This document shows, in pieces, positions 44-28,559 of a stretch of 30,624 bases of DNA; position 1 is the stretch's first letter; every line of letters begins with the position of its first letter. Where the stretch lies: positions 1 through 30,624 of IMG/VR virus record IMGVR_UViG_3300008108_000227, one strand, 5' to 3'. The notes beneath the pieces were generated by a model. That model was given only the letters and a program-made list of their open reading frames with translations, was not told the origin of the DNA and ran no database searches. Position numbers and translations under genes: made by a program. This DNA comes from a virus.

Positions 44-538
44 ATGCTTGATGGCATGAGAGGTCGCCCCCCGAAGCCGAAGCACATTCTCGAACTGACG
101 GGCTCGAAGCACGCCAAGGGCCGTGAGGAGTTGGGGACCGCGCCGGCCACGATGCAGCCGCCCGACTGGCTCAAGCCGAGGGCGAAACTCATCTTCACGA
201 GGCTGGTCGACTGGTTGACAAAGATGGGCACGCTCGCCGAAACCGACGAGCACGTCCTGATTCGTTACTGTGTCGTGTATGTCATGTGGGAGTATGCCGC
301 CCAGCAACTCCAGAGCATCGACCTCGCCTACGTCGAGGTCACGGCTCCTGACGGGAGCCTGCGATTCTCGCGGGCAACGGGCGTGGCGACCCAAGCAAAG
401 GAGTGCGGCGAGCAACTTCGGCACCTCGAAACGGTGCTGGGCCTTACCCCTGCCGACCGAACCCGCCTCGGATACGGCGCGGTGAAGGTCGTCGCCGACC
501 CCGTGGATGCACTCTTTGGCGACGTCGCCGCAGGTTGA
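44..538 (+). CDS. terS: Phage terminase small subunit, P27 family
   Basis: The small terminase recognises phage DNA and recruits the large subunit for packaging into the prohead. The 164-residue product has the basic N-terminal MRGRPPKP signature typical of P27-type small terminases (the motif starts at residue 5), then a helical region with a PPDWL segment near residue 40 and a central KMGTLAETDE helix-turn-helix-like stretch. The C-terminal part (VLGLTPADRTRLG) is also typical of the family. The gene overlaps the large terminase start by 32 bases, the usual order. The start is uncertain: ATG at 44 gives MLDGMRGR, while the in-frame ATG at 56 gives a protein beginning exactly at the conserved motif; neither has a clear ribosome binding site. 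Family assignment is from motif recognition and gene order. Confidence 0.88.
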   Translation: MLDGMRGRPPKPKHILELTGSKHAKGREELGTAPATMQPPDWLKPRAKLIFTRLVDWLTKMGTLAETDEHVLIRYCVVYVMWEYAAQQLQSIDLAYVEVTAPDGSLRFSRATGVATQAKECGEQLRHLETVLGLTPADRTRLGYGAVKVVADPVDALFGDVAAG

Positions 539-3119
539 CATCCGCGCCTTCGCGCGGCTGCTCAAGCACACCGAAGCCCCGTTCACCGGCAAGCCGTTCA
601 TACCGCAGCCGTGGCAGGACGAGTACCTCGACGCCCTCTTCAACACGAAGCGAGCGGACGGACTTCGTCAGTACCAGCGGTCGCTGCTTGCTCTGCCTCG
701 AAAGAGCGGGAAGGCACTGGCCCTTGATACTCCCATCCTGACATCAGCCGGATGGAAGACGATGGGCTCCGTCGAGGTCGGAGATGAGGTGTTTCACCCG
801 CTAGGCTACACAACACGCATTCTTGCCGTCAGCGAGGTGATGCACGACCGGCCGTGCTATAAGGTCGTATTCTCGCAGGGCGACACCATCGTCGCCGACG
901 AGGATCACTTGTGGCTTACCGACGCTAAGGCTGGAGTCACTGGGCAGGGCAGTGGTCGCATGAGCCGTGGTCTTGCCGGCATGCGAGTTCGGACCACTGG
1001 CGAGATATCGAGGACGTGCCGCACGGGAATCGCCCGCAATCATCGCGTTGTAGTCGCCGAACCGCTTGAGATGCCGGTCGCCGGCTTGCCGCTAGACCCC
1101 TATGTCCTCGGCGTGTGGCTTGGCGACGGAGCGTCGCGAGAAGCGAGCATTGCCGTCAGTTTTCACGAGAGCGACATTATTGAAAACCTCGCCGCCACCG
1201 GCGTCCCTGTGGTTGTGACTAGGTACGAGAGCAAGAACGCGCTATACGTCCGGCTCGGAGGTCGCGGACACCTCAAAGAAAACAGGCGAAGCGGAACAAG
1301 GTCAGTTCAGGAAATCCTTCGCGCAATAGGGGTTCTACGAAACAAGCACATTCCTCGCGACTACCTGATGGCGTCTCGTGAGCAGCGGCTCGCTCTCTTG
1401 CAGGGAATGATGGACACAGATGGATCAGTCGCTGTATCGGGGCAGGCGACATTCACGGCCACGAATCGAGTTCTTGCCGACGGGTTTCTTGAACTCGCCA
1501 CGGGGCTTGGCCTGAAGGCCACCATCGCCGAGGGGCGTGCAAAACTGAACGGGCGCGACTACGGACCCGTTTACTGGGTGAAGTTTCGGCCACGGCATCC
1601 GCTTGTCGTCTGCCGAATGTCACGCAAGCAGGCGAGGGTGAAGGGGGTTGCCCCCGGCCGCCCCGATAGGACTCGTCACAGGTCAATCATCTCCTGCACG
1701 CCGGCAGCATCGGTTCCGGTTCGCTGCATTCAAGTCGATTCTCCCGATGGAATGTTCCTCGTCGGCCGCTCACTAATCCCGACACACAACTCGGCCATGT
1801 GTGCCGTCATTGCAGCCTACGAGGGCTTCTTCGGTGCCGACGGCGGCCAGATTCTCATCGCTGCCGGCGACCGAAAGCAGGCGAGTCTGTTGTTCACGGC
1901 GTGCTCAAGGTACATCGAGTCATGCCCCGGCCTCCTGAAGAGGTCGAAGATTTACAAAGGCTCAATCGTCGTCCCCCACAAGAGGTCGACGATCCAGTTC
2001 CTTTCTAGCGAGCATCGGGGGAAGCACGGCTTCAATCCAAGTCTTTGCCTAGTGGACGAGTTTCACGTCCAGAAGAATCGTGACCTAATCGACGTCCTCG
2101 AATCAGGCATGGGCGCAAGGGCTGAACCACTGGTCGTCTACATCACGACGGCCGGCATGGACCGCATCGGCCCCTGTTACGAGGAGTGGCAGCGTGCCTT
2201 AAAGATTCAGGAAGGAACTCTGGTCGACCCGACGTTTCTGCCGTGCATCTACGCTGCCCCTGACGACGCCGACCCTTTCGATGAGTCGACGTGGAAGATC
2301 GCTTCACCGAACTACGGAATCACGATCCGCAAAGAGTTCATGGAGCGAGAGGCGGCCCTGGCTCGCGAGTCGGTCGCCCAAGAGATCAAATTCCGCACCC
2401 TCTACCTCAACCAGTGGGTTTCCAACGGAGCCAACCGCTTCTTCCGCATGGGCCAGTGGGACAAGTGCAGCGAACCCCTTCGCGACACCTCGCACCTCCC
2501 CTGCTACTGCGGCCTCGACCTGTCGAGCACGCAAGACACGACCGCGTTCGTGGCCGTCTGGCCTGGGGTCGACGAGGACGGCAACCACGATGGCACCTAC
2601 GACGTCTTCGCTCACCTCTTCCTCCCCGAGGCGAACGCTGACAAGGACGAGGCTCCGTACCGCCAATGGGCGAAGGATGGGTTTGTTACACTAACAGAAG
2701 GCGATATTGTCGATTACGACGTCGTTCGGAACTACGTTCTCTCGTTTTGCGAAGAGAACATGGTCCGCGGCGTAGCCATCGACAGGTGGAATGCCACGCA
2801 TATCACGACGCAACTAACGTCGGAAGGCGTGGAAGTGAAGCCGTTCGGGCAGGGATACGCCTCCATGAGCGCGCCCTGCAAGATGCTGGCCGCGCTTACA
2901 ATTTCAGGCAAAATACGTCACGGCGGCAATCCGGCGCTGGCCTACCAGATGAGCAATCTTCAGGTCCGCACCGACGACGCAGGGAACATCAAGCCCACCA
3001 AGGCTCATTCCCACTCGACCGCCCGAATCGACGCTCCCGTGGCCTGTGTTATGGCCCTCGGACTAGCCTCCGGTGAGGCTGTCGGCCCCGATGAAGACCC
3101 GCAACTGGTGGTGTTCTGA
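507..3119 (+). CDS. terL: Terminase large subunit, interrupted by an intein
   Basis: This is the ATP-driven packaging motor and headful or site-specific nuclease. The 870-residue precursor contains a 359-residue intein (residues 70-428); the spliced exteins would give about 511 residues, normal for a terminase. The Walker A P-loop reads PRKSGK (residues 64-69) and resumes with Ser after the intein, so the insertion splits the P-loop between Lys and Ser. Walker B is visible as LCLVDEF (about nt 2040-2065). The RNase H-like nuclease domain shows acidic residues in CGLDLSSTQDTT (about nt 2505), VAIDRW (about 2773) and STARIDAPVA (about 3019). The ATG at 507 lies inside the end of the small terminase gene. 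Without splicing the P-loop would be broken, so activity must depend on protein splicing. Confidence 0.95.
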   Translation: MHSLATSPQVDIRAFARLLKHTEAPFTGKPFIPQPWQDEYLDALFNTKRADGLRQYQRSLLALPRKSGKALALDTPILTSAGWKTMGSVEVGDEVFHPLGYTTRILAVSEVMHDRPCYKVVFSQGDTIVADEDHLWLTDAKAGVTGQGSGRMSRGLAGMRVRTTGEISRTCRTGIARNHRVVVAEPLEMPVAGLPLDPYVLGVWLGDGASREASIAVSFHESDIIENLAATGVPVVVTRYESKNALYVRLGGRGHLKENRRSGTRSVQEILRAIGVLRNKHIPRDYLMASREQRLALLQGMMDTDGSVAVSGQATFTATNRVLADGFLELATGLGLKATIAEGRAKLNGRDYGPVYWVKFRPRHPLVVCRMSRKQARVKGVAPGRPDRTRHRSIISCTPAASVPVRCIQVDSPDGMFLVGRSLIPTHNSAMCAVIAAYEGFFGADGGQILIAAGDRKQASLLFTACSRYIESCPGLLKRSKIYKGSIVVPHKRSTIQFLSSEHRGKHGFNPSLCLVDEFHVQKNRDLIDVLESGMGARAEPLVVYITTAGMDRIGPCYEEWQRALKIQEGTLVDPTFLPCIYAAPDDADPFDESTWKIASPNYGITIRKEFMEREAALARESVAQEIKFRTLYLNQWVSNGANRFFRMGQWDKCSEPLRDTSHLPCYCGLDLSSTQDTTAFVAVWPGVDEDGNHDGTYDVFAHLFLPEANADKDEAPYRQWAKDGFVTLTEGDIVDYDVVRNYVLSFCEENMVRGVAIDRWNATHITTQLTSEGVEVKPFGQGYASMSAPCKMLAALTISGKIRHGGNPALAYQMSNLQVRTDDAGNIKPTKAHSHSTARIDAPVACVMALGLASGEAVGPDEDPQLVVF
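714..1790 (+). mobile_element. Class 3 intein with LAGLIDADG homing endonuclease, inserted in the TerL P-loop
   Basis: This in-frame 359-residue insertion starts at Ala1 (ALALDTPILT) and ends THN, followed by Ser+1. Block B reads DEDHLWLT with His65 and Trp67; block F reads VRCIQVD with Cys338; block G ends Thr357-His358-Asn359. Trp at B:12, Cys at F:4 and Thr at G:5, with a non-nucleophilic residue 1, define class 3 inteins, where the block F Cys replaces Cys1 as first nucleophile. Two LAGLIDADG motifs are present, LGVWLGDG (132-139) and LLQGMMDTDG (228-237), with their acidic residues kept, so the endonuclease may be active. Insertion at the invariant GK/S of the ATPase is a classic conserved homing site. 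Boundaries follow from the block motifs and from restoration of PRKSGK-SAM. Confidence 0.93.
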
Positions 3120-3124
3120 CGCCT

Positions 3125-4786
3125 ATGCAACACTCCACCACTCCAGAAGACAACGAAGTCGCCGACCTGATCGAGATGCGGAGCAACCTCTCCCGCATCT
3201 TCGAGGAGATCGTCAACACTCGCCGAACGGTGGCCGGCATCACCGTCAGCCCCGAGACGGCTCTTGAATGCAGTGTCGTCCTGGCCTGCGTCCGCGTGCT
3301 CGCAGAATCAATTGCCAGCCTCCCTATGGGCGTCTACCGTCGCCTCCCCGGCGGCGGCAAGGAGATCGCCGAGGATCAGCACCTCCACGAGGTGCTCTGC
3401 TACCAACCGAACTCGTGGATGACGGGCTTCGAGTACCGTGAGTTGCTTCAGTCGTGGCTTCTCCTCTGGGGCAACGCCTATTCGTACATCAAGCCCGGCC
3501 GCAACGGTGCCGTCAGCGAACTGATCCCGCTTCACCCGTCGCGGATGGAGGTCAAGCGGCTCTCAAACGGCAAACTCCGCTACTACTACACCGAGCCGAC
3601 CACGCCGATTCAGCCGGAGATTCGTGTCACCGAGTATCGGCAGGACGAGATTTTTCATCTTCGCTGGTTGTCATCGGATGGGGTCACAGGATTTGTGCCC
3701 ACCACGCTCTCGCGAGACGCGATCGGCCTCGCCCGCGCGACCGAGATGCACTCGTCGGCATACTTCGGGAATGGCGCGAAGAGTGGGACGTATGTCGAGG
3801 TCGACCAGCCTCACAAGCCAGAGGCTCTGCAACGGTTCAAGCAACAGTGGGACGAGGCCCATAAGGGGCCAGCCAATGCGTTCAAAACTGTGATCATGCC
3901 GTATGGTTTTCACAAGAAAGAAGACCCGACGCGGAATGATACGGCTCAACTCATTGAGACACGCCGTTTTAGTGTCGAAGATGTGGCGCGCGTCTACAGG
4001 TGCCCGCCCCATTTGATCGGCGATTTCAGCAACGTCCGCTTCTCGACGGCGGAACAGTCGGCCATCGACTTCGTCACCTTCTCGCTGACGCCGTGGCTGC
4101 GTCGCTGGGAAATGGCCTGCCGTCGCGACCTCGTCATCGACGACAAGAACTACTTCGTCCACTTCGATACCAATGCGCTCCTCGCCGGCGACTATCAGGC
4201 GAGGGCTCAGTTCCTCCGCGAGGCGTTCAACAACGGAGCGATCGACGTTGACGAGTACCGTTCCGCGATTGGCTACAACCCGCTGCCGAACGGCCTCGGC
4301 AAAAAGCGGTTCGTTCAGGTCAATATGCAGTTGCTCGAAGCGTTTACGCCGAACAACCCGACCGGCCAAGCGACCGGCCAGGAACAAGCCCCGGCAGAAC
4401 CTTCAGGGCCGGAAGAATCGCCGTCCGGCGACGATCCCGAAGGCGGCCAAAGTGCCGGCCAGGACTCGGAGCCGCGAAGCCTCGACACGAACGAAGTCAT
4501 CTTCCGCACCAACCTTCGACGCCTCGCTGCCATCGAAGCCGACGGAATCATCGAGCGTCGCAACAAGCCAGACAAACTCGCCGCATGGTTCGAGCAGATG
4601 CAGTCAAGAATGCGAACCGAACTACGCGACGCAGCAAATGCTACTGGCCGCGACATTGACGAGTTCGTGGTATCGTGGATAGGTCGCTCGAAAGACATCC
4701 TTTTGGGGTGCCATCGCAGCGGAAAGAAGTACGAAACCGTGATGGAGACGTGGTGCGAGCAGCACCTTGACGACCATGCCGAGTGA
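3125..4786 (+). CDS. Portal protein, HK97 family
   Basis: The portal forms the dodecameric ring at the head vertex through which DNA passes. The 553-residue product has typical HK97-type portal features: the early VSPETALECSVVLACVRVLAESIASLP segment, in which new peptides pass from hypervariable N-terminus to the core; the GFEYRELLQSWLLLWGNAY region; LIPLHPSRMEV; and RVYRCPPHLIG followed by STAEQSAIDFV near residues 290-320. Length is somewhat above the usual 400-450 because of a C-terminal extension: a Pro/Gln/Glu-rich linker (about residues 410-450) and a charged helical tail ending near residue 553. The tail has no assigned role. It starts 6 bases after the terminase and overlaps the next gene by 11 bases, implying coupled translation. 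Confidence 0.94.
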   Translation: MQHSTTPEDNEVADLIEMRSNLSRIFEEIVNTRRTVAGITVSPETALECSVVLACVRVLAESIASLPMGVYRRLPGGGKEIAEDQHLHEVLCYQPNSWMTGFEYRELLQSWLLLWGNAYSYIKPGRNGAVSELIPLHPSRMEVKRLSNGKLRYYYTEPTTPIQPEIRVTEYRQDEIFHLRWLSSDGVTGFVPTTLSRDAIGLARATEMHSSAYFGNGAKSGTYVEVDQPHKPEALQRFKQQWDEAHKGPANAFKTVIMPYGFHKKEDPTRNDTAQLIETRRFSVEDVARVYRCPPHLIGDFSNVRFSTAEQSAIDFVTFSLTPWLRRWEMACRRDLVIDDKNYFVHFDTNALLAGDYQARAQFLREAFNNGAIDVDEYRSAIGYNPLPNGLGKKRFVQVNMQLLEAFTPNNPTGQATGQEQAPAEPSGPEESPSGDDPEGGQSAGQDSEPRSLDTNEVIFRTNLRRLAAIEADGIIERRNKPDKLAAWFEQMQSRMRTELRDAANATGRDIDEFVVSWIGRSKDILLGCHRSGKKYETVMETWCEQHLDDHAE

Positions 4787-5264
4787 GCCAACGCTTCCGC
4801 CGATCACGACCGCAGGCGTCGTCGCGTCACTTCAGGCCGGCGTGCGTCTGCACCTGACGGCCATCGAGAACTACGCCACCCAGGCGGCTCACTTCGGGCG
4901 ATGGGGATACTCGAAACTGGCCGCGAAGTACGCGGCTGACGCCGAAGAAGAGCGAGGGCACCTGAAGTCGCTGCTTGAACGGCTCGAATACTACGACGTT
5001 CAGCCGGACTGCGCACACGATCAGCCCATGTGGCCGCGTCACGACTTCGAGGGAGTCCTCGCGGCGAACTATGAACTCGAAACGGCAACCGCCGCGGCCG
5101 AGCGAGCGGGTGTTTTGGCCTGCCGCGCTGTCGGAGATGAGCGTTCGGCCCTCGTTTTTGCCTCCAACTTGGAGGGAAGCGAGGACTCGATCGCTGACAT
5201 CGAGGCCACCCAGAGGGTTCTGGAGCAGATCGGCCTCGACAACTACCTCGCGAATCAGGTGTGA
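4776..5264 (+). CDS. Bacterioferritin-like (ferritin fold) protein with degraded metal site
   Basis: The 162-residue protein aligns without gaps, by eye, to bacterioferritin over its first half: LTAIENY matches LVAINQY, FGRWGYSKL matches FKNWGLKRL, and EERGH (Glu59, His62) matches the ExxH ferroxidase ligands. The end, LEQIGLDNYLANQV, matches the bacterioferritin C-terminus (IQKMGLQNYLQAQI in E. coli). However, the first Glu ligand position is His26, the second ExxH motif is Ser135/Ser138, the fourth ligand position is unclear, and the haem-ligand Met position is Arg60. The fold therefore looks kept and the diiron site looks mostly lost. ATG at 4776 overlaps the portal stop; a TTG at 4767 is possible. 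Its place between portal and protease suggests a head-related or moonlighting role, which is inference. Confidence 0.82.
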   Translation: MPSEPTLPPITTAGVVASLQAGVRLHLTAIENYATQAAHFGRWGYSKLAAKYAADAEEERGHLKSLLERLEYYDVQPDCAHDQPMWPRHDFEGVLAANYELETATAAAERAGVLACRAVGDERSALVFASNLEGSEDSIADIEATQRVLEQIGLDNYLANQV

Positions 5265-5266
5265 GC

Positions 5267-6955
5267 ATGGCAAACGCTGAAATCGAGCGTCGGATCACGT
5301 TTTCGGACGCCTCCATCGAGTATCGGGACGGCGAAAACGGCGAAAAACGGCCGACAATTGTCGGTTACGGGGCCGTGTTCAACTCCGAGAGCCGAAATCT
5401 CGGCGGCTTCATCGAAACCGTGCATCCGAAGGCGTTTGATGACGTCCTTTCGACGAATCCTGACGTCCTCGGGCTCTACAACCACGACAAAAACAAGTTA
5501 CTCGCCCGTTCGAGCAATGGGTCGCTCAAGTTGGCGGTCGATGGCTACGGTTTGCGGTACGAAATGTCGCTGCCGGCGACTCGTGACGCCGAAGATGTCG
5601 CCACAATGGTGAAAGAGCGACTCGTCACCGGGTCATCCTTCGCCTTCGCGGTGCGAAAAAACGGCGGCGACGTCTGGAGCACCGACGACCGCGGCATGAA
5701 GCGGCGGGAAATCCGCTCCATCGGCCTCCTCGAAGACGTCGGCCCCGTGGTTCGCCCCGCCTACGATGCGTCCAGCGTCGTGGTGAGCCGCCGAGCCATC
5801 GAAATGGCCCTCGGCGAGAACTACCGGCCGAATCAGACGATGTCGAACGCGGCTCGCCGTGGCCTTCGGATCGCCGAAAAGCGAGACGACATCGACGCCC
5901 GGCTCCTCGTGATCGCCGAACGGATCGCCAACCGCGACGTCATCAGCGTCGAGGAAGTCGCCCACCTCGCCGAGGTGCAGGAGCGATGCGCCGCCGCCAA
6001 GGCTGCCAACTGGACCGGAACCACTCCGCACGTCGAGTGGCTCCTGGCCGGCGGGGACAGCGGCCAGAAGTGGATCGAGCGGCGTAACGAAACCGATGCT
6101 CAAGTCGAAACGAGCGTAGGTTCCGTAACACCCGCCGCCGACCTGGGCGACGACTGCGAAGTCCGCGACGGCGACGTCAGCCTGAAGCCGACGGCCGGCA
6201 TGGCCGCGGCCTGCCGGCGTGGTCTGAAACTCTACGAAGAGGGCCGCGGCGGCGACGGGCTCGTGCCGGCGACGATTTCGTGGGCTCGAAAGATCGCCGC
6301 CCGCGAGAACCTGACCGAGGAGAAGGTCATCAAGATGCGGGCGTGGCACGCTCGCCACAAGGTCGACAAGAAGCCCGGCTGGGACAAGGCCGGCGAGGAA
6401 ACGCCTGGATTTGTGGCGTTTTTGCTCTGGGCTGGGGAACCCGGCCGCCGCTGGAGCGAGGCAAAAGTCGCTCAGATGCCGTCGGAAAAGCGAGAGGTAG
6501 ACGGCGACGAAGACTACTCGGAGTACGGCACGCTCTCGCCAGCGAACCTAGCCTATGCCGAGTCTCTGGAGGGCATCGCCGACGAGTTCGGCCCCTGGCC
6601 GCAGGGCGGCCCGGCCGGAGCCCACTATATCGAAGTCAGCCCCTTCGCCGAACGCGGCCTGAAGTGCAGCAACTGCATCTTCTTCGAGGCCGGCGCGTGC
6701 GAGGTGGTGCAGGGAAGCATCTCGGAGGATGGAGTCTGCAAGTTATGGGTCATCCCCGAGGGCAAGATGAGCGAAGAATCAAAGCGATCAGAGTCCGCTG
6801 TCGTCGAGGACGCTCAAGTCCAGGCGGAAGCAACTACCGAAGAAACTCCGGCAGTTGCCGAGCCGACGATCGACGAGTCGCTTGCTGCGAAGGTCAAGTT
6901 GGCGGAACTCAACGCTGTCTTGCTCCGCACTCGTTTGCAAGCGAGCAAGCAGTAA
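5267..6955 (+). CDS. Prohead protease (S78/HK97 type) with duplicated C-terminal domain and four-Cys cluster
   Basis: Residues 1-175 form the HK97-type maturation protease: IVGYGAVFN, VHPKAFDD, the catalytic His73 in LYNHDKN, the catalytic Ser in VTGSSFAFAV (Ser123 or Ser124), and GPVVRPAYDASS. It would cleave scaffold and capsid precursor during maturation. The 562-residue length is far above the usual 180-250. Residues about 313-400 carry a known phage domain (AACRRGLKL, RAWHARHKVDK, FLLWAGEPGRRW), and residues about 195-273 look like a diverged first copy (AARRGLRI, WLLAGGDSGQKW). Residues 467-491 hold CX2CX7CX12C, similar to HiPIP-type cysteine spacing. A Glu/Ala-rich tail follows. The start is ATG 5267 or GTG 5261; the latter overlaps the previous stop. 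Confidence 0.9.
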   Translation: MANAEIERRITFSDASIEYRDGENGEKRPTIVGYGAVFNSESRNLGGFIETVHPKAFDDVLSTNPDVLGLYNHDKNKLLARSSNGSLKLAVDGYGLRYEMSLPATRDAEDVATMVKERLVTGSSFAFAVRKNGGDVWSTDDRGMKRREIRSIGLLEDVGPVVRPAYDASSVVVSRRAIEMALGENYRPNQTMSNAARRGLRIAEKRDDIDARLLVIAERIANRDVISVEEVAHLAEVQERCAAAKAANWTGTTPHVEWLLAGGDSGQKWIERRNETDAQVETSVGSVTPAADLGDDCEVRDGDVSLKPTAGMAAACRRGLKLYEEGRGGDGLVPATISWARKIAARENLTEEKVIKMRAWHARHKVDKKPGWDKAGEETPGFVAFLLWAGEPGRRWSEAKVAQMPSEKREVDGDEDYSEYGTLSPANLAYAESLEGIADEFGPWPQGGPAGAHYIEVSPFAERGLKCSNCIFFEAGACEVVQGSISEDGVCKLWVIPEGKMSEESKRSESAVVEDAQVQAEATTEETPAVAEPTIDESLAAKVKLAELNAVLLRTRLQASKQ

Positions 6956-6982
6956 CGCTAATCTACAAGTAGAGACACAGTG

Positions 6983-7004
6983 CTACGCGATGGATGTCGC
7001 GTAG
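6983..7004. repeat. Perfect 8-bp inverted repeat upstream of the capsid gene
   Basis: CTACGCGA at 6983-6990 and TCGCGTAG at 6997-7004 pair perfectly around the 6-base loop TGGATG. The hairpin is flanked by a direct repeat CAGTG (6978-6982 and 7007-7011). It lies in the largest non-coding gap of the window (6956-7114), directly before the major capsid gene. No T-run follows, so it is not a standard intrinsic terminator. It may be an mRNA processing or stability element, or a protein-binding site. The rest of the gap shows no clear -35/-10 promoter. Confidence 0.6.
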
Positions 7005-7114
7005 GGCAGTGCGAGCGACGTGAGGATTCACGGCGCGGCGCGCTAGCGGGAAACACACACCCGCCGGCCGCCGCACCTTCGCGTTGGCCGGCTTCAACAG
7101 GAGCAGGGCCAACC

Positions 7115-8467
7115 ATGGCATCGAATCTCAAGCGTCTTCAGGAGCGGGCGGCCGGCATCTCGGCTCGCATGGCGGAACTCACTGCGGTCGAGGATCGCAG
7201 CGCCGACCAGACCAAGGAACTCCTCTCACTGTCGGCCCAGGCCGATCAGGTGAAGACGGACCTCGAATTCGAGGAGCGGATCGCGGCCAAGGAAGCCGAA
7301 CTCCGCTCGGTCGTCGAGAAGGCTGCTCCCGCCCCCGCCGCGGCCCCCGTGGCCGAGGTGAAGGACGAGCCCAAGAAGATCGAGATTCGGGGCATCGCTC
7401 CGCATCACACGCAACTCTCCGCGTTCAACGACGGCCCCGAGGCTGTCGAGAGCGCCTACCGCTGCGGCCGCTGGCTGCGTGCGGCGGTGTTCAAGAACGC
7501 CGACGACATTCGGTGGTGCAAGGAGCACGGCGTCGAGAACCGCGCCCTCGGCGAGAACTCCAACAGCACCGGCGGCGCGCTGGTGCCGGAGGAGTTTGCT
7601 GCCCGCGTGATTCGTCTTGTCGAAAACTATGGCACCTTCGCCGCGTCGAGCGTCGAGAAGGTGACGATGACCCGCGACACGATGATCGTGCCGAAGCGTG
7701 TCACCGGAACCACGGCTTACTTCGTCGGTGAAGGCACTGCCGTCACCGAGAGCGAGCCGACCTACTCGAACGTCCAGTTGATCGCCAAGAAACTGGCGGT
7801 TGGCACCCGGATGTCGAGCGAGGTTGTCGAAGATGCTCTGATCTCTCTGGCCGACGCCGTCGCGACCGAGTTCGCGACCTCGCTGGCCTACAAGATCGAC
7901 CTCTGCGGCTGGGTTGGCGACGGCACCTCGTCCTACGGTGGCATCCATGGCGCGGTCAACCGTGTCAACGACGGCACCCACACGGCGAGCATCGTGACCT
8001 CCGGCTCGACCCGCACTGGGTTCGAGACGCTGACCGTGACGGACTTCGTCAACATGATCGGCAAGATGCCGCTGTACGCTCGCTCGGGCGCTCAGTGGTA
8101 CATCTCGCCGGCCGGTTTCGCCTCCTCGATGGCTCGCCTCCGCTACGCGGCCGGCGGGAACACCGTCGAGACGGTGGGCGGCGGTGTCAACGAGACGTTC
8201 CTCGGCTTCCCGGTGAACCTCGTCCACGTCATGGACTCGACCCTCGGTGCAGACGCCGGCAAGGTCAAGGTTCTCTTCGCGAACCTCGGCCTGTCCTCGA
8301 TCTACGCCCGTCGCCGGGACTTCTCCGTGCGGATGTACGACCAAGTCTACGCCACGACCGATCAGTTGCTCCTCCAGGGCACGATGCGGTTCGACGTCGT
8401 CCACCACTCGCTGGGTGACAACACCACGGCGGGCCCGGTGATCGCTCTCAAGACCGCCGCGTCGTGA
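7115..8467 (+). CDS. Major capsid protein, HK97 fold, with N-terminal scaffold-like delta domain
   Basis: This is the main shell protein. The 450-residue product begins with a charged coiled-coil-like segment (residues about 1-70, LKRLQERAAG to VVEKA), then an Ala/Pro linker (70-80). This resembles the HK97 gp5 delta domain that acts as scaffold and is removed by the protease encoded just upstream. The core starts near residue 145 (ALGENSNSTGGALVPEEF), the usual start of mature HK97-type capsid proteins, and continues with the MTRDTMIVPK, EGTAVTESEPTY and LIAKKLAVGTRMSSEVVEDA motifs. The frame stays open upstream to 6980, but ATG 7115 is preceded by AGGAG at 7099-7103 and matches the family N-terminus. 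It is probably the most highly expressed gene here. Confidence 0.95.
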   Translation: MASNLKRLQERAAGISARMAELTAVEDRSADQTKELLSLSAQADQVKTDLEFEERIAAKEAELRSVVEKAAPAPAAAPVAEVKDEPKKIEIRGIAPHHTQLSAFNDGPEAVESAYRCGRWLRAAVFKNADDIRWCKEHGVENRALGENSNSTGGALVPEEFAARVIRLVENYGTFAASSVEKVTMTRDTMIVPKRVTGTTAYFVGEGTAVTESEPTYSNVQLIAKKLAVGTRMSSEVVEDALISLADAVATEFATSLAYKIDLCGWVGDGTSSYGGIHGAVNRVNDGTHTASIVTSGSTRTGFETLTVTDFVNMIGKMPLYARSGAQWYISPAGFASSMARLRYAAGGNTVETVGGGVNETFLGFPVNLVHVMDSTLGADAGKVKVLFANLGLSSIYARRRDFSVRMYDQVYATTDQLLLQGTMRFDVVHHSLGDNTTAGPVIALKTAAS

Positions 8468-8500: not shown

Positions 8501-8932
8501 ATGATTGCATCCCAGATGAGCAAGGTTGTCGCTGCGGTTCCGACTGCGGCCACGACCAACACCACGACCCTCGTGATTGACACGCTGTCGTGGGACTATG
8601 CCTCGGTCGCTGTTCTTCGTGCCTCGAACGCCGCGACGACGTTTGCCTCGACCCTCAAGGTCGAAGAGTCGGACGACAACTCGGCCTACTCGAACGTCAG
8701 CGGCTTCGTCGGCGGAACGGATTTCACGATCCCGACCGTGACGGACACCGCCAGCGTCGCTGTCGTGAAGTTGGACATCGACACCAAGGTGCGGAAGCGT
8801 TACCTGAAGGTGTCGGCTTGCCCCTCGACCTCCTCGGCAATCGCCGTGGCGATCTCGGGCCGGCTGTCCCGTGGCGATAGCGCCCCGACGACTGCCGCAG
8901 AGGCTGGTTGCATCGGCTGGGTCAAGGGCTGA
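8501..8932 (+). CDS. Probable head decoration or minor capsid protein
   Basis: The 143-residue product is Ser/Thr/Ala/Val-rich and reads as a beta-rich domain: alternating hydrophobic strands (TTTLVIDTL, YASVAVLRAS), a KVEESDDNSAYSNVSGFVGG segment, and DTKVRKRYLKVSACPSTSSAIAVAISGRLSRGDSAP. That last pattern (arginine-flanked RYLK strand, then a C-terminal LSRGDSAP) is seen in small proteins encoded right after capsid genes in many siphophages. It lies 33 bases after the capsid gene and has a good AAGGAG ribosome site 9-14 bases before ATG. Position and predicted strand content suggest a capsid-binding protein. No catalytic motif is seen, and the function is inference. Confidence 0.6.
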   Translation: MIASQMSKVVAAVPTAATTNTTTLVIDTLSWDYASVAVLRASNAATTFASTLKVEESDDNSAYSNVSGFVGGTDFTIPTVTDTASVAVVKLDIDTKVRKRYLKVSACPSTSSAIAVAISGRLSRGDSAPTTAAEAGCIGWVKG

Positions 8933-9014
8933 TCCCGATTCAAGCGGGACGGCCAATGACCGGCCGGTGAAGGCGCAAGGACGCGCGCCCGCTCCCGTCA
9001 AAAGGAGCGAACCG

Positions 9015-9743
9015 ATGAAGTTGCGTGTTGGAAACGTCGAGGCAGACGCACGAGTCGCGGCGGTCATGTCGACCCCGCGACTCGCGTTTACCGACAACCT
9101 CCTCTGCGTCTCGGCAGCCCTCGCACCTCACGGCCTCTCGCCGATCAAGGTGACTGGTGCCTACTGGTCGCAGTCGCTCGCCAAGGGGATGTCGAGCGTC
9201 ATCGACACGCACGACTTCATCCTGACAGTCGATTACGACACCGTCTTCAACGCGAAGACTGTCGAGGCTCTCCTCGCCCTTATGCTTCACAGCGGGGTTG
9301 ACGCCATCGCTCCGCTTCAGATGAAGCGAGAGACGGACTCGGTCATGTTCTCCATGCCCGGAGTCTCCCCCGACGACAAGTGTCAGGTCGACGGTTCGTG
9401 GTTCGAGAAGCCTGTTCAGTTGGTCGGCACTGCTCACTTCGGGCTGACGTTCCTGCGGACTTCTGCCCTCAAGCGGATGCCGAAGCCCTGGTTCGAGTCG
9501 ACGCCGAACAAAGATGGCGAGTTCACGGGCGGTCATATCGACGAAGATGTGTCGTTCTGGAACAAGTGGCTGGCCGTCGGCAACACGCTCGGTATGGCAA
9601 CGGGGGTCAGTGTGGGTCACTGCGAGTTGATGGTGACGTGGCCGAGCCTGGGGGCTCCAGACAACAAGATTCAACAGCACTCGACGGAGTATTGGAACAG
9701 CGGACAGAAGGCACCAAAGGAAGCCTGGGGAGCCATCCAATGA
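9015..9743 (+). CDS. GT-A fold glycosyltransferase (GT2-like)
   Basis: The 242-residue protein has the hallmarks of a nucleotide-sugar-dependent GT-A transferase: an early strand VAAVMSTPRLAF, a DXD-like metal motif TVDYDTVF (Asp73, Asp75), the acceptor-region GTAHFGLTFLRTSALKRM (138-155), and an HIDEDVSFWNKWLAVG segment (174-189) like the catalytic ED motif of GT2 enzymes. A VSVGH with His202 follows, a common metal-ligand position. The frame is open upstream to 8871, but ATG 9015 has AAAGGAG at 9001-9007 (preceded by further A) and begins a sensible N-terminus. The gene sits among capsid and connector genes, so virion-protein glycosylation is a reasonable inference; modification of host surface or DNA is not excluded. 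Confidence 0.85.
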   Translation: MKLRVGNVEADARVAAVMSTPRLAFTDNLLCVSAALAPHGLSPIKVTGAYWSQSLAKGMSSVIDTHDFILTVDYDTVFNAKTVEALLALMLHSGVDAIAPLQMKRETDSVMFSMPGVSPDDKCQVDGSWFEKPVQLVGTAHFGLTFLRTSALKRMPKPWFESTPNKDGEFTGGHIDEDVSFWNKWLAVGNTLGMATGVSVGHCELMVTWPSLGAPDNKIQQHSTEYWNSGQKAPKEAWGAIQ

Positions 9744-19846: not shown

Positions 19847-22800
19847 ATGTCGTTCTGGGCATTTTGCTGCAAGTTCCCGCAAGTCTACAGGCCATTCTCG
19901 GGAGCCTATCAGTACCCGCGTGAGACGGTCGCTGTTGGCGGCGGTGGTAATCCAGAACTAGAGGGCTGCACCGACCCGTCCATAGACAACGAGGGCGATT
20001 GGAAGTGCCTGTCGGATTATGCTGGGATCAGGGCAGACGGAACCTTATGGTGCTGGATTCGAGCGATCGTTGCTGTCGAGACATTCAAGACTCACGGCAC
20101 CACAGGCTATGGTGGAACCGGTGGACAAGACCGCCCCGTTCAGATAAGCGACGACACAGACTGGGATTTCGTTACGTCTGACGCCGATCGGGGGTTTGCG
20201 ATCAAGTCCGGCGGGGCGATGTATGCGTTCGGCACAGGCGGCTACGGCTCGCTTGGGATCGGACATGGCCGAAACCGAGGAGACGTGGGGAGCGGCTACC
20301 AACTAGACTCGTACCGAGGAAGGCTGTCTTCTGGAATCGCTCGCGTAAACATGGCGTCAGTAACTCTCACTGGCAAGCCTACCGCGACAATTGTTGGCGG
20401 CCCCAGTGGAATGCTTGGTTCAGGGGCGGAATTAAGCGTCGAGTGGACAGGACGAGCCACCACCTCGATCTTTCCCACGAGCGGCGGGTCTGGGTTCACG
20501 TCTGCGCCTTTAATAGAACTTGTCGGAAACACGTCCGAAGACGCAGGAAAACGGCTCGCCGCGAGTACGGTGGTCATGTCGTCCTCCAATGTGACAGGGT
20601 TTGAGGTGATTAGCGGAGGGGAGGGGTACACCTTCGCAACAGCCACGCTTAGATACTACAACGCGACGGCAACTGCCACGATAGAGAACGGTGCGATTAC
20701 TGGCTGGACTGTCACAAACCAGGGGACGGCGGCGTCGGTCGCAGCGGCGACATCTATCCTTGAGTCGCCGGGATATGGCGTCATAGTGTCAGGGGACGGG
20801 GACGGGGGCGTCGCAAAGCCGGTATTCGGCACGCGAAGCGTCAGTCAAGTGGGGTTCCCTCCAACGGAAATCTGGACATCGCCCCCGCGAGTTGAAGTCT
20901 CCGGGGGCGGCGGAAGCGGCGTGAGCATCAACGTATCGAGTTCACTCATCGGAACTGTGAAGTCTATAAGCGTCACGAACCCAGGAAGCGGGTACACGCA
21001 GTCGGCAGGCGAGATGCTTCGGGTGCAACTGACGCACCAAGGCATCGTGTACGATGGCGGTTCTGTCGACTTAACGCCTTCAAAGGTTGTCTCAGTCCAT
21101 GCAAAAGTCGACACGTCATCGCTCCCGAAACTGATGAAGCAGTCGGATGGGAAGTTGTTCCCATTTACCATCAACTCAAGTAACTATCTATTGGCTTCGC
21201 CGTGGGACGGCCCCCAGATTGAATCCGTTCGCGTGGTCAAAAACGGAGGGTCGGAGTTTCCGATATCCAATGCGGGCGTGAGCGCGTCGACTATTTCTGG
21301 ATGCCGATACCCTCCGTTCATAAAAACATACTTCTCCTATCCAGCGCACACAACAAATTCGACGGCTATCCACGCCGTATCCGAAAAACTTCAAGATGTG
21401 TGCTGCACCGGATCGTTCTGCACATACGATGTGTTCGTTTCGCCGGGCGTGCCGCCGCCCTCCACGGGGAATTCCTGGCCTGCCTCGGGAACGGGTGGGA
21501 CATTTAGCGGCAACGGCAGCGTCACTTATAAGTGTATTGACGGCAACAATGTGGAAACGGGCCGCACATGGGTGGAATGGGGCACCCGCTCGTCTGGCGG
21601 GTATTCCCAACCACTTCCCAGCGACTACACAGTTACTTCAACTCGATATACTGGACGCATAGCGGCAAAAGTTGGCAACATTTCTGTCATCGGCACGACC
21701 ACTCAGTGGCCTTCGGAGGTGTCGCTTTACCGAGGCACGGTATGGTCAACGCCCACAATAGAGCATAAGTCTCGCATCTTCTTCGCCCCCTCGTCGATCA
21801 GCGGAACGGCGGCGTATGCCGAAGCATCGCCGGTCGGCGGCGACGTCGTCTACGGATTCGGTACGTCACCCACCCTCATAAGCGACGGCGATGCGCTATA
21901 CGACCTTGAGCCCACCTCACTTAGCATAACTGACACTTTTGAATACCCGGTTGTGGTCGGAAACGAGTCGTGGAAGTCGGTTTCTATAAGCGGACAGTCG
22001 TCTTACGGCGTCACGACGGGTGGGGCGCTCTACTGGTGGGGAAACAACACCGCGTGCGGCAGAGTACTGCCGTGTGTGTCCCCGTCGCCCGTGGGGCAGG
22101 GGGCGACAATCGATATTTTGGCCACTGGCGAGTTAGCACGCTTCGGAGATCGCGGGAGCAGCGGTGCGGGCCTAACCAATCGAGTGTGCCTCTCTGTTCC
22201 TGACCACGGCGTCTACAACGTGGGCAATATCGAGGGGTCTAGTATTGACGCATCAGCCCTGTCGAGGTTGGTGGAAGAGCGGGTGGCATTTGCGTCAAAC
22301 TTCGCCAAGGCCAGTTCTTATGGGGTGATGACTTACTTTCCTCCAGAAACGAACCTCTGGACGCGAAACGGCGCGTTTGGTGGAGCCGGGTATACAGCAA
22401 CCCCTTCGGCCGAGTTCTTGTATGCCGGAACTGCGCCTGCCACGTTTACGGCGAGGCTTTTTGGCCCTTCGGCCTTCAGTGAAGTTCGCGAGGACTGCGC
22501 AAAAGGCACAGACGGGAGGTGGTATCACTTGGGCGACCCACTTGGTCCGCAGGCGGTGTATAAGTCGCCAAGAAAACTTTACGACTACACGTTCACATAT
22601 AACGGAACATTTGATGCAAGGTATTCAAGCACAACCGGCACGCGCTCGATCGCCCGCGAGCAGTACCCGACATACATCTACGTCTCCAACGGCGGCAGCG
22701 GTTACTCGTCTGCCTCGATGTCTCTCGCCCTTTCGCGTAATGCCATTGACGAGTACGACCCTAATAGCCCAACGTCTCAGACGTTCGTCGTGAACAGCAA

Positions 22801-25744
22801 GGAGACGTGCGGGGGCGGGTCTGAAGTGGTGACTAGTTCGACGCAGACAACGACCTACAGCCATCCAGCCGCATCTACGATCACTTCCACTGGTGAACTC
22901 ACGATACGGCACGGTGCTATTGCTCCAAGTCCCGCAAGCGGAACGTATATCGGGTATCTTAACGAGGGTGAGGTGTCCGCTTCGATCTCGGGCGTTGGCG
23001 GGAGCGGTGGAGCCTTGTCTGTCGTGCAGTTTTCGCAACCTTTTGAGTCTCATCTTCTGCCCCTCACCCCAGCGGGAGTCGAATCATTTAGCCGAAGTGC
23101 AGGCATCGGAACTAAGTCTTCGTTGCTCTGCTCATTTCCATACACTAGGTATTCTTACAGAACAGACGGCTACTATTTCCCCTACGACACCGGATGGGCT
23201 TCGTATTCGGCCGGAGAGTTCGATGGCAAAGTGAAAGTGTCGGGCCGTTCCATCCGCAGGGACGGCGACTCGTCGATTTTGAGGGCCAGATCGGCTGATG
23301 TGCAAACCGACCTTACGACAATGGCGGCGTACAAAGTTCTTTCATCAAGTCTCACTCTTGAATCAACCGGATCAGGCTACGGAGATGTCGCGTCAGCGAC
23401 TGTGTCTCAGCAGGCCGGAGTAGCCACGGCGAGTGCCGTCTACTCCGCAAGCGTGATGGCGATCGGCGTGCTCAATGGCGGTGGTGGATACACGTCACCA
23501 CCAGAAATCACCCTGACGGCCAGCGGCGGCGGGACTCCGGGGACAGCGACCGCAGTGATTGCCGGCCCTGTTTCTAAGATTAACGTAACTGCTTCAGGAA
23601 GCGGCTACAGGATTCCGCCGAGAGTCTCGTTTTCAGGCGTTGGCATCCACGCTGAAGCCACATGCACACTAAACGAAGCCGGCGGTGTCGAGAGCGTGTC
23701 TCTTTCTGACGGAGGAAGGTACAGGAATTCGCCCCCGACCGTGTCATTTACGCCCATATCGCAAGTCGAATCCATATCATTAACCAGCGGCGGCAGCGGG
23801 TACACCTCTGCCCCTGACGTATTTATTGGCGGTGGCGGTGGTGGCGTTAACGCGACGGCGACGGCGACCTTCAAGGCAAAAGTGGTGAGCGTGGAGGTGC
23901 TCAACGGCGGTTCGGGATACTCGTCAACACCGACAGTATCATTCTCAGGCGGTGGCGGCGCGGGGGCTTCGGCCACGGTGTCTGTGTCTGAATCAGGCGC
24001 TGTGACAGGAATTTCGATCGTAAACGAAGGGGACGGATACACGTCCGCTCCTTCGGTATTTATTTCTGGCGGTGGTGGAAGCGGAGCGACGGCAAAAGCG
24101 AAGATATCTGGAAGCGTAGACAGCATAACGCTCACTTCACGGGGGGAAGACTTCTCCATCCCGCCTACGATTGTCTTCTACAATGGCGGCGGCGGAAGCG
24201 GGGCGTCAGCCACGGCGACCCTGTCGTCTCCCGGTAGCGGAGCCGCCGCGACCGCCACGCTAAACGGCTCTGTCATGTTTTGCGCCCACTCCGGCTCAAG
24301 TGGGCTACAGGAAGAACCCGTAGCGACTGTGTCGCACTCATCGAACTACATCATTTCGGACTTGAATGCGCGCTTCTCTAGCGGGGAGATCAATCAACAA
24401 GAGTTCGACCGAGGCTTTGCGGCGGCGGCGGCACGGCTGAAGACAAGAATATCAGGATCAGTTTCCAGCGTCACCGTCACGTCTTCAGGGAACTCATACA
24501 AGCAGAGCACTGACTACACAAACCTCCCCGGGTACATGGAGAAGAAACTCCCCGGAATAGCGCAGATCAGGGGCGAGATGGCCGAGTATGCGTCAAGTGG
24601 CGCGAGGGCCGGAGACACGATCGTTCTCGGCAACGTAAGCGGAGGAGGCATCTCGTCTTTTACGACCCCATCGATTCTTTCGCAGTTGAGGTTCTGGAAA
24701 AAGCCCGAGGTGGCCGCAATAGATGGCATTTCAGCGATCCCCAGCACTTGTCTTACTCTGCGATCTGCCGCAGTTCGTTCGGCTGGAACAAATTCTGGCA
24801 CGATCACCCGCGGCCCTGTCGTGGGGAACGGTGTGTTTTCGGCAGCCATCACAAACGCTTCGGCGGTTGATTCGCTGATCATGTCGGGCGCGTTTTCCAG
24901 CCAATCGTTCAGTCAATCTTACGCCGCATTCTATAGGCAATACTACGCAAACGCATACTCAACAAAACCAACCGTCACCCTTGAGGACGAGGCTGGCTCT
25001 GGAGCGACTGTCGGGGCGATGGATGCCGCGACGATTGTCTCTGGCGGGGATGGATACACGCTGGGCGCAAGGCTCGTGATAAAAGGAGGAACGCCCTATG
25101 CGTGGACGTCGCCGGCAGACGCTGTCGCTACGGTTAGCAATGGGAGCGTCACCAGCATCTCCGTGATCAACAGTGGCAGAGGTTACTTAACCGCGCCGTC
25201 TGTGTTCATTGTGGGCGGCGGCGGCACCGGAGCGAGGGCCGAGGCTAATCTGTCGCCAGGGCCGAATTTTCAGATCGCAAGCATCACGGTCACAAACGCA
25301 GGGCGAGGGTACACTTCGACACCGACCGTGATTGTGGTGGATAACGAACGGCCTTTTCAATTTTCGGCGGTTGCGAAGGCTCTTGGGTACGTCAATGGAA
25401 TAAGGGCCGTTGAGTTCCCCGTCCTTCAGGACTACAAAGTTGAGTTCTGCTTGGTATCACGGGCCAATCAAGGCCAGATGACCATTACCTCGCCTGTCGG
25501 GCTTATTCCTGGCAACTACAATGCGAGGTTCGTCCCGTTTTTTGAAGACGACGGCTACGTTGAGGGTATTTTGTGGTCATACATCTACAGCGGAACAGAT
25601 GGCTACTTCTGCGGGGTGAGGAATTTCACCCAAGCGCCGACGGTCACGGCTGTCGGGCCGTGCAGCGGGCCGGCGACATTCTCGACAAAGATCGAGGGTT
25701 GGTCTGATGTGTTCTCCGAGAATGCCTTAAAACTTGCCGACTAA
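19847..25744 (+). CDS. Giant repeat protein with RCC1-like motifs; probable tail-tip/receptor-binding protein
   Basis: The 1,965-residue protein is the longest in the window. Four RCC1-like strand sets are visible: ADGTLWCW (about 50-72), [19 protein letters not shown] then [13 protein letters not shown] (about 98-140), [20 protein letters not shown] then LYWWGNN (about 705-740), and [18 protein letters not shown] (about 877-900). Between and after these are at least fifteen copies of a motif close to [23 protein letters not shown] with ATATA strands, eight in tandem. No signal peptide or membrane span is seen; the N-terminus has several Cys. Base use is visibly less GC-rich than in the head genes. 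Such Gly/Tyr-rich repeat proteins downstream of tape measure genes are typically host-contact proteins. The exact role is inference. Confidence 0.85.
23335..24230 (+). repeat. Tandem array of about eight GGSGYTSAP-type repeats
   Basis: In the giant protein, residues about 1163-1461 hold eight consecutive units of about 33-38 residues. Core examples: [79 protein letters not shown]. Each is followed by [11 protein letters not shown]-type glycine and alanine runs. DNA copies are diverged, so the array is old. More single copies lie near nt 20480, 20610, 20990, 22375, 22690, 25040, 25160 and 25300. Confidence 0.85.
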
Positions 25745-27520: not shown

Positions 27521-28014
27521 TTGAACGCCCGATGACAGAGGTCGACATCCTCCGGCTCGCGGCCCGCGAGGCGACGAGGCACTCAAGCGACACCCAAACC
27601 CAGAACGGGGCCGCGGTGGCGAGGCTCAACGACCTCGTCTTCACTGCCGCCAATGCCTTCCCGGCCGGCGTCGAGCGGCGGCATCACCGGCTTGGGCGTC
27701 CCGAGAAGTACACGTTCATCGAGCACGCCGAGCGGAACGTCATCTACAAGGCCGCGTCGGTCGGCTGGGCCACCGGCGGCGCGACGATGTACTGCCTCTG
27801 GTTCGCCTGCCCCGATTGCGCCAGGGCGATCATTCAGGCCGGCATCTACGAGGTCGTCGGCCACGTCAAGCCTCGGAACGCCACACCGTCCAGATGGCTC
27901 CAGGCCGTCAGGGACGGCGAGACGATGCTGCGGGAGGCCGGGGTCGGGATGCGGTGGCTCACCGACGACCTCGGGGTAACGATTCGATTCGATGGAAAGG
28001 AGATGCGACTGTGA
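27517..28014 (+). CDS. dCMP deaminase-like cytidine/deoxycytidylate deaminase
   Basis: The 165-residue protein holds the zinc deaminase motifs: HAE at residues 70-72 (EHAERNV) and C-P-D-C at 98-101 (ACPDCARAI), with an Ala where the family usually has Pro before the first Cys. The N-terminal region with TQTQNGAAVAR and NDLVFTAANAFPAG corresponds to the substrate-pocket strand (N-G-A-A-V, N-x-F-P). Deoxycytidylate deaminase would convert dCMP to dUMP for dTMP supply; activity on another base or nucleotide is possible. Start is GTG 27517, in GTGA overlap with the phosphoesterase; ATG 27532 is the alternative. It sits next to a dNMP kinase, consistent with nucleotide metabolism. Confidence 0.85.
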   Translation: MIERPMTEVDILRLAAREATRHSSDTQTQNGAAVARLNDLVFTAANAFPAGVERRHHRLGRPEKYTFIEHAERNVIYKAASVGWATGGATMYCLWFACPDCARAIIQAGIYEVVGHVKPRNATPSRWLQAVRDGETMLREAGVGMRWLTDDLGVTIRFDGKEMRL

Positions 28015-28559
28015 TCCTGATCGGACTCTGCGGAGCCGCCGGCAGCGGCAAGGGAGAGGTGGCGCGGCGGCTGGCGAGCAGTCACGGCTTCACCGAAATG
28101 GCCTTCGCCGACCCTCTCTACGAGGCCGTCTCGGCGATCGTGGGGAAGCCGGTCGCGTGGCTGAAGGACCGGGCCAACAAGGAGGCCGTGATCCCGTGGC
28201 TCGGCAAGTCGCCGCGGGAACTCCTGCAACTCATGGGGACGGAGTTCGGCCGGAACATGATCCACCCTGAAATCTGGGTCAGGAGTGCCGTGGAGCGGTT
28301 CGACTCGTCGCAGCGGGTTGTGATCACCGACGTCCGGTTCGACAACGAGGCCGAGATGATTCAGGAGGCCGGCGGCGTCATCTTTCAAGTCGTCCGACCA
28401 GGGGGCCGGTGCCTGTCGGACGCCACCGCCGCCCACGAAAGCGAGAGCGGTATCGCGGCCGATCACATCTACTCGACCATTGAGAATGCCGGCACGCTCG
28501 ACGACCTCGCAGCCGCCGTGGATGCGGCCGTTGTTAGTCTATACGCCGATATAATGTAG
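28011..28559 (+). CDS. Deoxynucleoside monophosphate kinase
   Basis: The 182-residue product begins MILIGLCGAAGSGKGEVARRLA with P-loop G8-x-x-x-x-G-K at residues 8-14. Further features fit phage dNMP kinases: FTEMAFADPLYEAVSAI (residues about 31-47), SPRELLQLMGTEFGRNMIHPEIWV (about 66-88, the typical R-x-L-L-Q-x-x-G-T-E-x-x-R), VVITDVRFDNEAEMI and a lid-like RPG segment. It would phosphorylate dNMPs to dNDPs for phage DNA synthesis. GTG 28011 with AAAGGAG at 27996-28002 (8-base spacing) and GTGA overlap with the deaminase decides the start. The frame is open upstream but only as a shadow. Confidence 0.9.
   Translation: MILIGLCGAAGSGKGEVARRLASSHGFTEMAFADPLYEAVSAIVGKPVAWLKDRANKEAVIPWLGKSPRELLQLMGTEFGRNMIHPEIWVRSAVERFDSSQRVVITDVRFDNEAEMIQEAGGVIFQVVRPGGRCLSDATAAHESESGIAADHIYSTIENAGTLDDLAAAVDAAVVSLYADIM
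28550..28555 (+). promoter_or_regulatory. Weak candidate -10 element (TATAAT)
   Basis: A perfect TATAAT occurs at the end of the dNMP kinase gene, 38 bases before the start at 28593. The nearest TTG-type hexamer, TTGTTA at 28531-28536, is only 13 bases upstream, too close for a normal sigma-70 promoter, and no TG extension precedes the hexamer. In GC-rich DNA such a hexamer is uncommon, so it may drive the next genes, but chance is a real possibility. Confidence 0.2.

Follow-up and report, generated by a model that had tools for sequence, protein, structure and literature searches.

The window analysed here, 30,624 bases in length, is a complete IMG/VR virus record. On its plus strand, a gene for a terminase small subunit (TerS) of the P27 family (44-538; NCBIfam TIGR01558 E=2.9e-15, Pfam Terminase_4 E=1.7e-13) is accompanied by a reading frame at 507-3119, free of stop codons throughout, which encodes a large terminase (TerL) precursor of 870 aa, or 511 aa once spliced (Pfam TerL_ATPase E=2e-17, TerL_nuclease E=1.8e-34). 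TerL is of the HK97 type, having both ATPase and nuclease domains and the P27 TerS, an HK97 portal, a protease and a capsid protein as its neighbors. Three parts make up the precursor, all on the plus strand: a 69-aa N-extein (507-713), 96% identical in amino acid sequence to that of the intein-free phage L036; a 359-aa class 3 intein (714-1790); and a 442-aa C-extein (1791-3116), 93% identical to those of the intein-free phages L035-L037. The C-terminal end of the N-extein is the Walker A sequence ...PRKSGK (696-713). A search for the host among 84,980 bacterial and archaeal genomes returned no relatives of the C-extein.

The intein occupies precursor residues 70-428, from the first base of Ala1 (714) to the last base of Asn359 (1790), with termini ALALDTPILT...LIPTHN. 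The original prediction had placed a class 3 intein at exactly these coordinates, and all of the residues it named were found at their positions. The N-terminal splicing (HINT) segment, residues 1 to ~117 (714-1064, +; boundary approximate), was delimited by alignment to 6bs8, the class 3 DnaB1 intein of M. smegmatis, and by the invariant columns of 21 related inteins, and it carries Ala1 (714-716, +), His65 (906-908, +) and Trp67 (912-914, +). The C-terminal splicing segment with blocks F and G (1668-1790, +), delimited from 6bs8 and the residues invariant in the 21 relatives, contains Cys338 of block F (1725-1727, +) and Thr357-His358-Asn359 of block G (1782-1790, +). The phmmer match to 6bs8 (E = 7e-26) is far above chance, and the alignment covers both ends of the intein, with query residues 1-78 on 1-78 and 330-359 on 110-139. 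The nucleophilic Cys or Ser that was looked for at position 1 in this alignment is absent; the residue is Ala in the window and in all 7 inteins of its clade. The Trp-Cys-Thr triplet of class 3 is present at B12, F4 and G5 as W67, C338 and T357. H65, W67, C338, T357 and N359 are invariant across the 21 related inteins, and no fewer than 90% of these have H358. An AlphaFold (AF2) model of the intein (pLDDT 89.6, pTM 0.88) was matched by Foldseek to the HINT folds 6rix, 6riy and 6bs8 with TM-scores of 0.82-0.86 over the target. The mini-inteins MsmDnaB1 (6bs8) and MchDnaB1 (6rix) share with the window the splicing domain, the His65/Trp67 numbering, the WCT triad and a P-loop Lys before Ala1, but they reside in a helicase and lack an endonuclease. 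In MchDnaB1, Cys, His and Thr act as a triad (PMC7664689).

Between the splicing segments lies a LAGLIDADG homing endonuclease segment, residues ~118-318 (1065-1667, +; boundary approximate), recognized by Pfam LAGLIDADG_3 (E=8.5e-08, above its cut-off) and Hom_end (E=3e-05) and by Foldseek matches to PI-SceI (E=7.8e-20) and I-DmoI (E=2.6e-05). The first motif, LGVWLGDG (residues 132-139; 1107-1130, +), includes the catalytic-type Asp138 (1125-1127), and the second, LLQGMMDTDG (residues 228-237; 1395-1424, +), includes the catalytic-type Asp236 (1419-1421). Both acidic residues, previously described as kept, are invariant in the 21 relatives. The splicing and endonuclease domains both look constrained, with dN << dS in each part and dS saturated. 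Matches of intein residues ~134-203 (window 1113-1325) to the malonate decarboxylase protein MdcG (PF20866, TIGR03135) fell below cut-offs and are likely spurious.

As predicted, the intein interrupts PRKSGK and S, that is, it sits between the Walker A Lys and the next Ser of the HK97-type large terminase; joined, the extein flanks read LLALPRKSGK followed by SAMCAVIAAYEG. This is a P-loop site of the TerL1-a type, the name used for mycobacteriophage terminase inteins that lie between Lys and Thr of the P-loop (Kelley et al. 2016, PMC5050341). Searching viral contigs with the C-extein yielded 75 loci, and a profile search added further ones; the loci with readable sites comprised 67 distinct intein-free alleles and 7 distinct intein alleles, the window included. 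The intein-free relatives have a P-loop uninterrupted at the exact insertion point (PRK.GKT), as anticipated, but it reads GKT in 67/67 distinct alleles and not the expected GKS. The +1 codon (1791-1793, +), which completes the divided Walker A motif, thus specifies Ser in 7/7 intein alleles and Thr in 67/67 intein-free alleles, and this strict split is part of what is new at this locus. When the junction pattern permitted Thr, Ser or Cys at +1, no intein contigs beyond the known set, all with Ser+1, were recovered.

We considered and rejected, as a general rule, an incompatibility of Thr+1 with class 3 splicing, because Thr+1 occurs in 43 of the 123 inteins that follow Gly-Lys and also in the terminase intein of the phage Tomaszewski. 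These 123 belong to 159 tabulated class 3 inteins from phage contigs and bacterial genomes, a set picked by similarity to the family of the window intein. Phages and prophages very often carry class 3 inteins behind a Gly-Lys, so this is not a rare kind. The earlier description of class 3 as a minority mechanism, correct for inteins overall, is overstated in this respect, and the same class was already known at the same terminase site. The terminase intein of Tomaszewski gp8 (MN096364, a cluster E mycobacteriophage) lies at the TerL1-a site and has class 3 residues, with RKNGK preceding ALDVETPIL...VCIQI...PTHN and TELL following it. It resembles the window in its P-loop terminase site, class 3 signature, retained LAGLIDADG motifs and 45% aa identity in alignment, but it has Thr rather than Ser at +1, a mycobacteriophage setting and an only distantly related terminase. 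For the BAKA TerL1-b and Bethlehem TerL1-c inteins, both splicing and cutting of the inteinless partner gene have been shown (PMC5050341). Bethlehem TerL1-c likewise belongs to class 3, sits in a terminase and has LAGLIDADG blocks; it differs in being inserted in a poorly conserved helix instead of the P-loop, and its activity was measured, whereas that of the window intein is predicted from sequence.

The nearest relative of the window is L036, which is intein-free. Identity between the two is 99.4% over positions 1-686, 77% over 1791-2396, 99.9% over 2397-3116 and 98.6% over 3117-7116. Within the terminase gene, the window and L036 share 99.9% identity outside a single tract and 76% inside it; the tract begins 27 nt ahead of the insertion point and runs ~606 nt past it. 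A two-breakpoint fit assigned 151/633 differences to the tract and 1/900 to the remainder (dlnL 140), placing a 5' part of ~27 nt at 687-713 (+) and a 3' part of ~606 nt at 1791-2396 (+). The last tract mismatch is at +605 and the next mismatch to L036 at +647, and the likely 3' crossover interval (2397-2437, +) falls in a conserved NQWVSNGAN block. Inside the tract the window instead resembles the intein-bearing phage L038, to which its first 530 nt are ~95% identical. Two intein-free phages, L035 and L036, retain 92-99% identity to each other across the part of this tract that follows the insertion point, and therefore the window is the sequence that changed. The comparison shows that the lineage of the window acquired its intein recently: an intein-free phage matches it at 99-100% on both sides, and a different, intein-bearing phage matches it inside the tract. 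This pattern is what would be expected as the footprint of recent homing with co-conversion, and it lends support to the mobility proposed originally. The tract is lopsided (~27 nt upstream, ~606 nt downstream), and within it the Thr codon has given way to the incoming Ser+1.

The intein body of L038 (L038:2921-4000, compared with window 714-1790) is only 58% identical to that of the window, so the actual donor lies outside the sampled sequences, among which the best identity to the window intein is 61%. The last ~30 residues of the two inteins (90-93% identity in nucleotides) and ~600 nt of flank are nevertheless shared, and two inteins have probably exchanged sequence within the C-terminal splicing block.

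The footprint is repeated in four other phages, in the pairs L038/L041, L063/L089, L088/L087 and L002/L072. Outside the tract, L038 is 95-98% identical to the intein-free L039-L041, L063 98% to L089, L088 95% to L087, and L002 88-91% to L069-L076; inside it, all four drop to 77-81% against those intein-free neighbors. L077 is different, with almost no tract relative to its intein-free neighbor L087 (95.1% outside, 93.3% inside). One intein allele was found in both L002 and L003, which come from two metagenomes. A tree built outside the tract pairs the window with L036 as its sister and requires 7 changes, one for each intein allele, with well-supported branches forcing at least 6 of these. The tract tree unites the window with L038 and L063 in one clade (support 96 and 99) and requires only 4 changes; 0/500 shuffles gave a count as low. 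The intein tree conflicts with the extein tree, grouping L004 with L088 (support 100). The 3' borders of all five intein-allele tracts lie between +531 and +606 in a conserved block that is followed by a stretch among the most divergent in the gene (mean identity 65% at +630 to +645); such borders would fit repair stopping where good homology ends.

Phage genomes undergo modular recombination, and the intein could be real and splice yet have been transferred when co-infecting phages swapped the terminase ATPase segment through ordinary homologous recombination, with the endonuclease not driving the transfer. Two intein-free phages, L052 and L053, do show a similar swapped segment relative to L061, from -162 to +528 around the same site and with a 3' border near those of the intein alleles. 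This module can therefore recombine without an intein; the swap could be plain recombination or the trace of a lost intein. Apart from these and the pair L046-L060, however, the ATPase segment is mostly not hypervariable where inteins are lacking, so that the association of inteins with swaps is strong but not absolute. A fall of more than 8 points against the nearest intein-free neighbor was seen in 5/6 intein alleles and in 5/52 intein-free alleles (Fisher p = 3e-4, a guide only because the rows are not fully independent). In addition, the insertion point is inside the segment in all five cases, the 5' border in the window is only ~27 nt from the insertion point, and both catalytic-type Asp residues are invariant in the 21 relatives. 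We consider ordinary exchange unlikely on these grounds.

Decay is common among endonuclease domains, and an intein that has lost its endonuclease or splicing activity might merely persist. Every splicing residue is retained, as are the two acidic LAGLIDADG positions, dN is low relative to dS in both parts and the insertion is recent, all of which makes this an improbable account of the window. It is still less probable that an L036-like and an L038-like phage were joined into the window by faulty assembly. Metagenomic contigs, of which the window is one, can be chimeric, and identity changes abruptly at two borders here, but the reading frame runs open through both of them, other contigs show this architecture with other partners, the allele shared by L002 and L003 comes from two metagenomes, and the intein of the window is in none of the compared contigs. 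Assignment to class 1 or class 2 can be set aside almost completely, as position 1 is Ala, neither Cys nor Ser, the Trp-Cys-Thr triplet is complete with its Cys in block F, and the closest sequence matches are class 3.

Taken together, we think it highly probable that the P-loop of the TerL in the window is interrupted by a class 3 intein that is full-length, mobile and predicted to splice, and that the lineage of the window gained this intein recently. By analogy with the family, Cys338 of block F, helped by His65, Thr357 and Trp67, would attack the Lys-Ala1 bond; the acyl group would then transfer to Ser+1, Asn359 would cyclise, and the 511-residue TerL would be released with GKS restored. 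That packaging would be impossible without this splicing is a sound deduction. During co-infection, the LAGLIDADG part would be expected to cleave intein-free terL alleles at the P-loop, and repair of the cut allele from an intein-bearing copy would insert the intein. Transfer between close relatives is what we see; the suggestion that homing would spread to any intein-free relative was overstated.

Homing between wild phages has usually been inferred from the patchy distribution of inteins, whereas here a recipient, a relative of the donor flank and a product with clear borders are all at hand. The new element appears to be this clear natural triplet, with L036 as recipient type, L038 as donor-flank relative and the window as product. 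They provide a concrete pair of sequences for studying endonuclease specificity, the asymmetry of co-conversion and whether splicing requires an imported Ser+1. Co-conversion accompanying homing is classical in T4 (PMC2988022), where the flanks of the td intron are also co-converted lopsidedly after an endonuclease cut; that element is an intron with the GIY-YIG enzyme I-TevI and was measured in crosses, while the window holds an intein and its history is read from sequence. In the haloarchaeal MCM-d intein, the +1 residue is reported to be co-converted to Ser upon invasion (PMC10643990). Invaded alleles there, as in the window group, all have Ser at +1 and uninvaded alleles another residue, a change attributed to co-conversion, but MCM-d resides in an archaeal helicase and its uninvaded alleles mostly carry Pro, a residue incapable of splicing, as opposed to Thr, which other class 3 inteins use. 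Tentatively, and with less than even confidence, we propose that, in this phage group, homing of P-loop inteins repeatedly moves the Ser+1 codon and the ATPase module's downstream half (as far as about codon +180 to +200) into new backgrounds, the intein being a gene drive under which packaging motors are reshuffled, with all 3' borders at one conserved block before the divergent stretch. The footprint in the window also shows how a selfish element can carry pieces of an essential motor gene from phage to phage.

Several other genes of the window were noted. A ferritin-like gene (4767-5264; Pfam Ferritin E=2.7e-11, EExxH motif) lies between those for the portal and the prohead protease and is common to 11 related phage loci at 52-99% identity; it seems unusual for a phage structural cluster. 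To the 3' side of the capsid region, 8871-9743 has a weak glycosyltransferase-like match (PF13632) below cut-off. A 1965-aa reading frame at 19847-25744 contains many repeated glycine motifs, e.g., GGGGSGA, and probably encodes a virion or host-contact protein. A deoxynucleotide monophosphate kinase is encoded at 27816-28559 (Pfam DNMK E=2.4e-14), its true start probably being internal to the reading frame.
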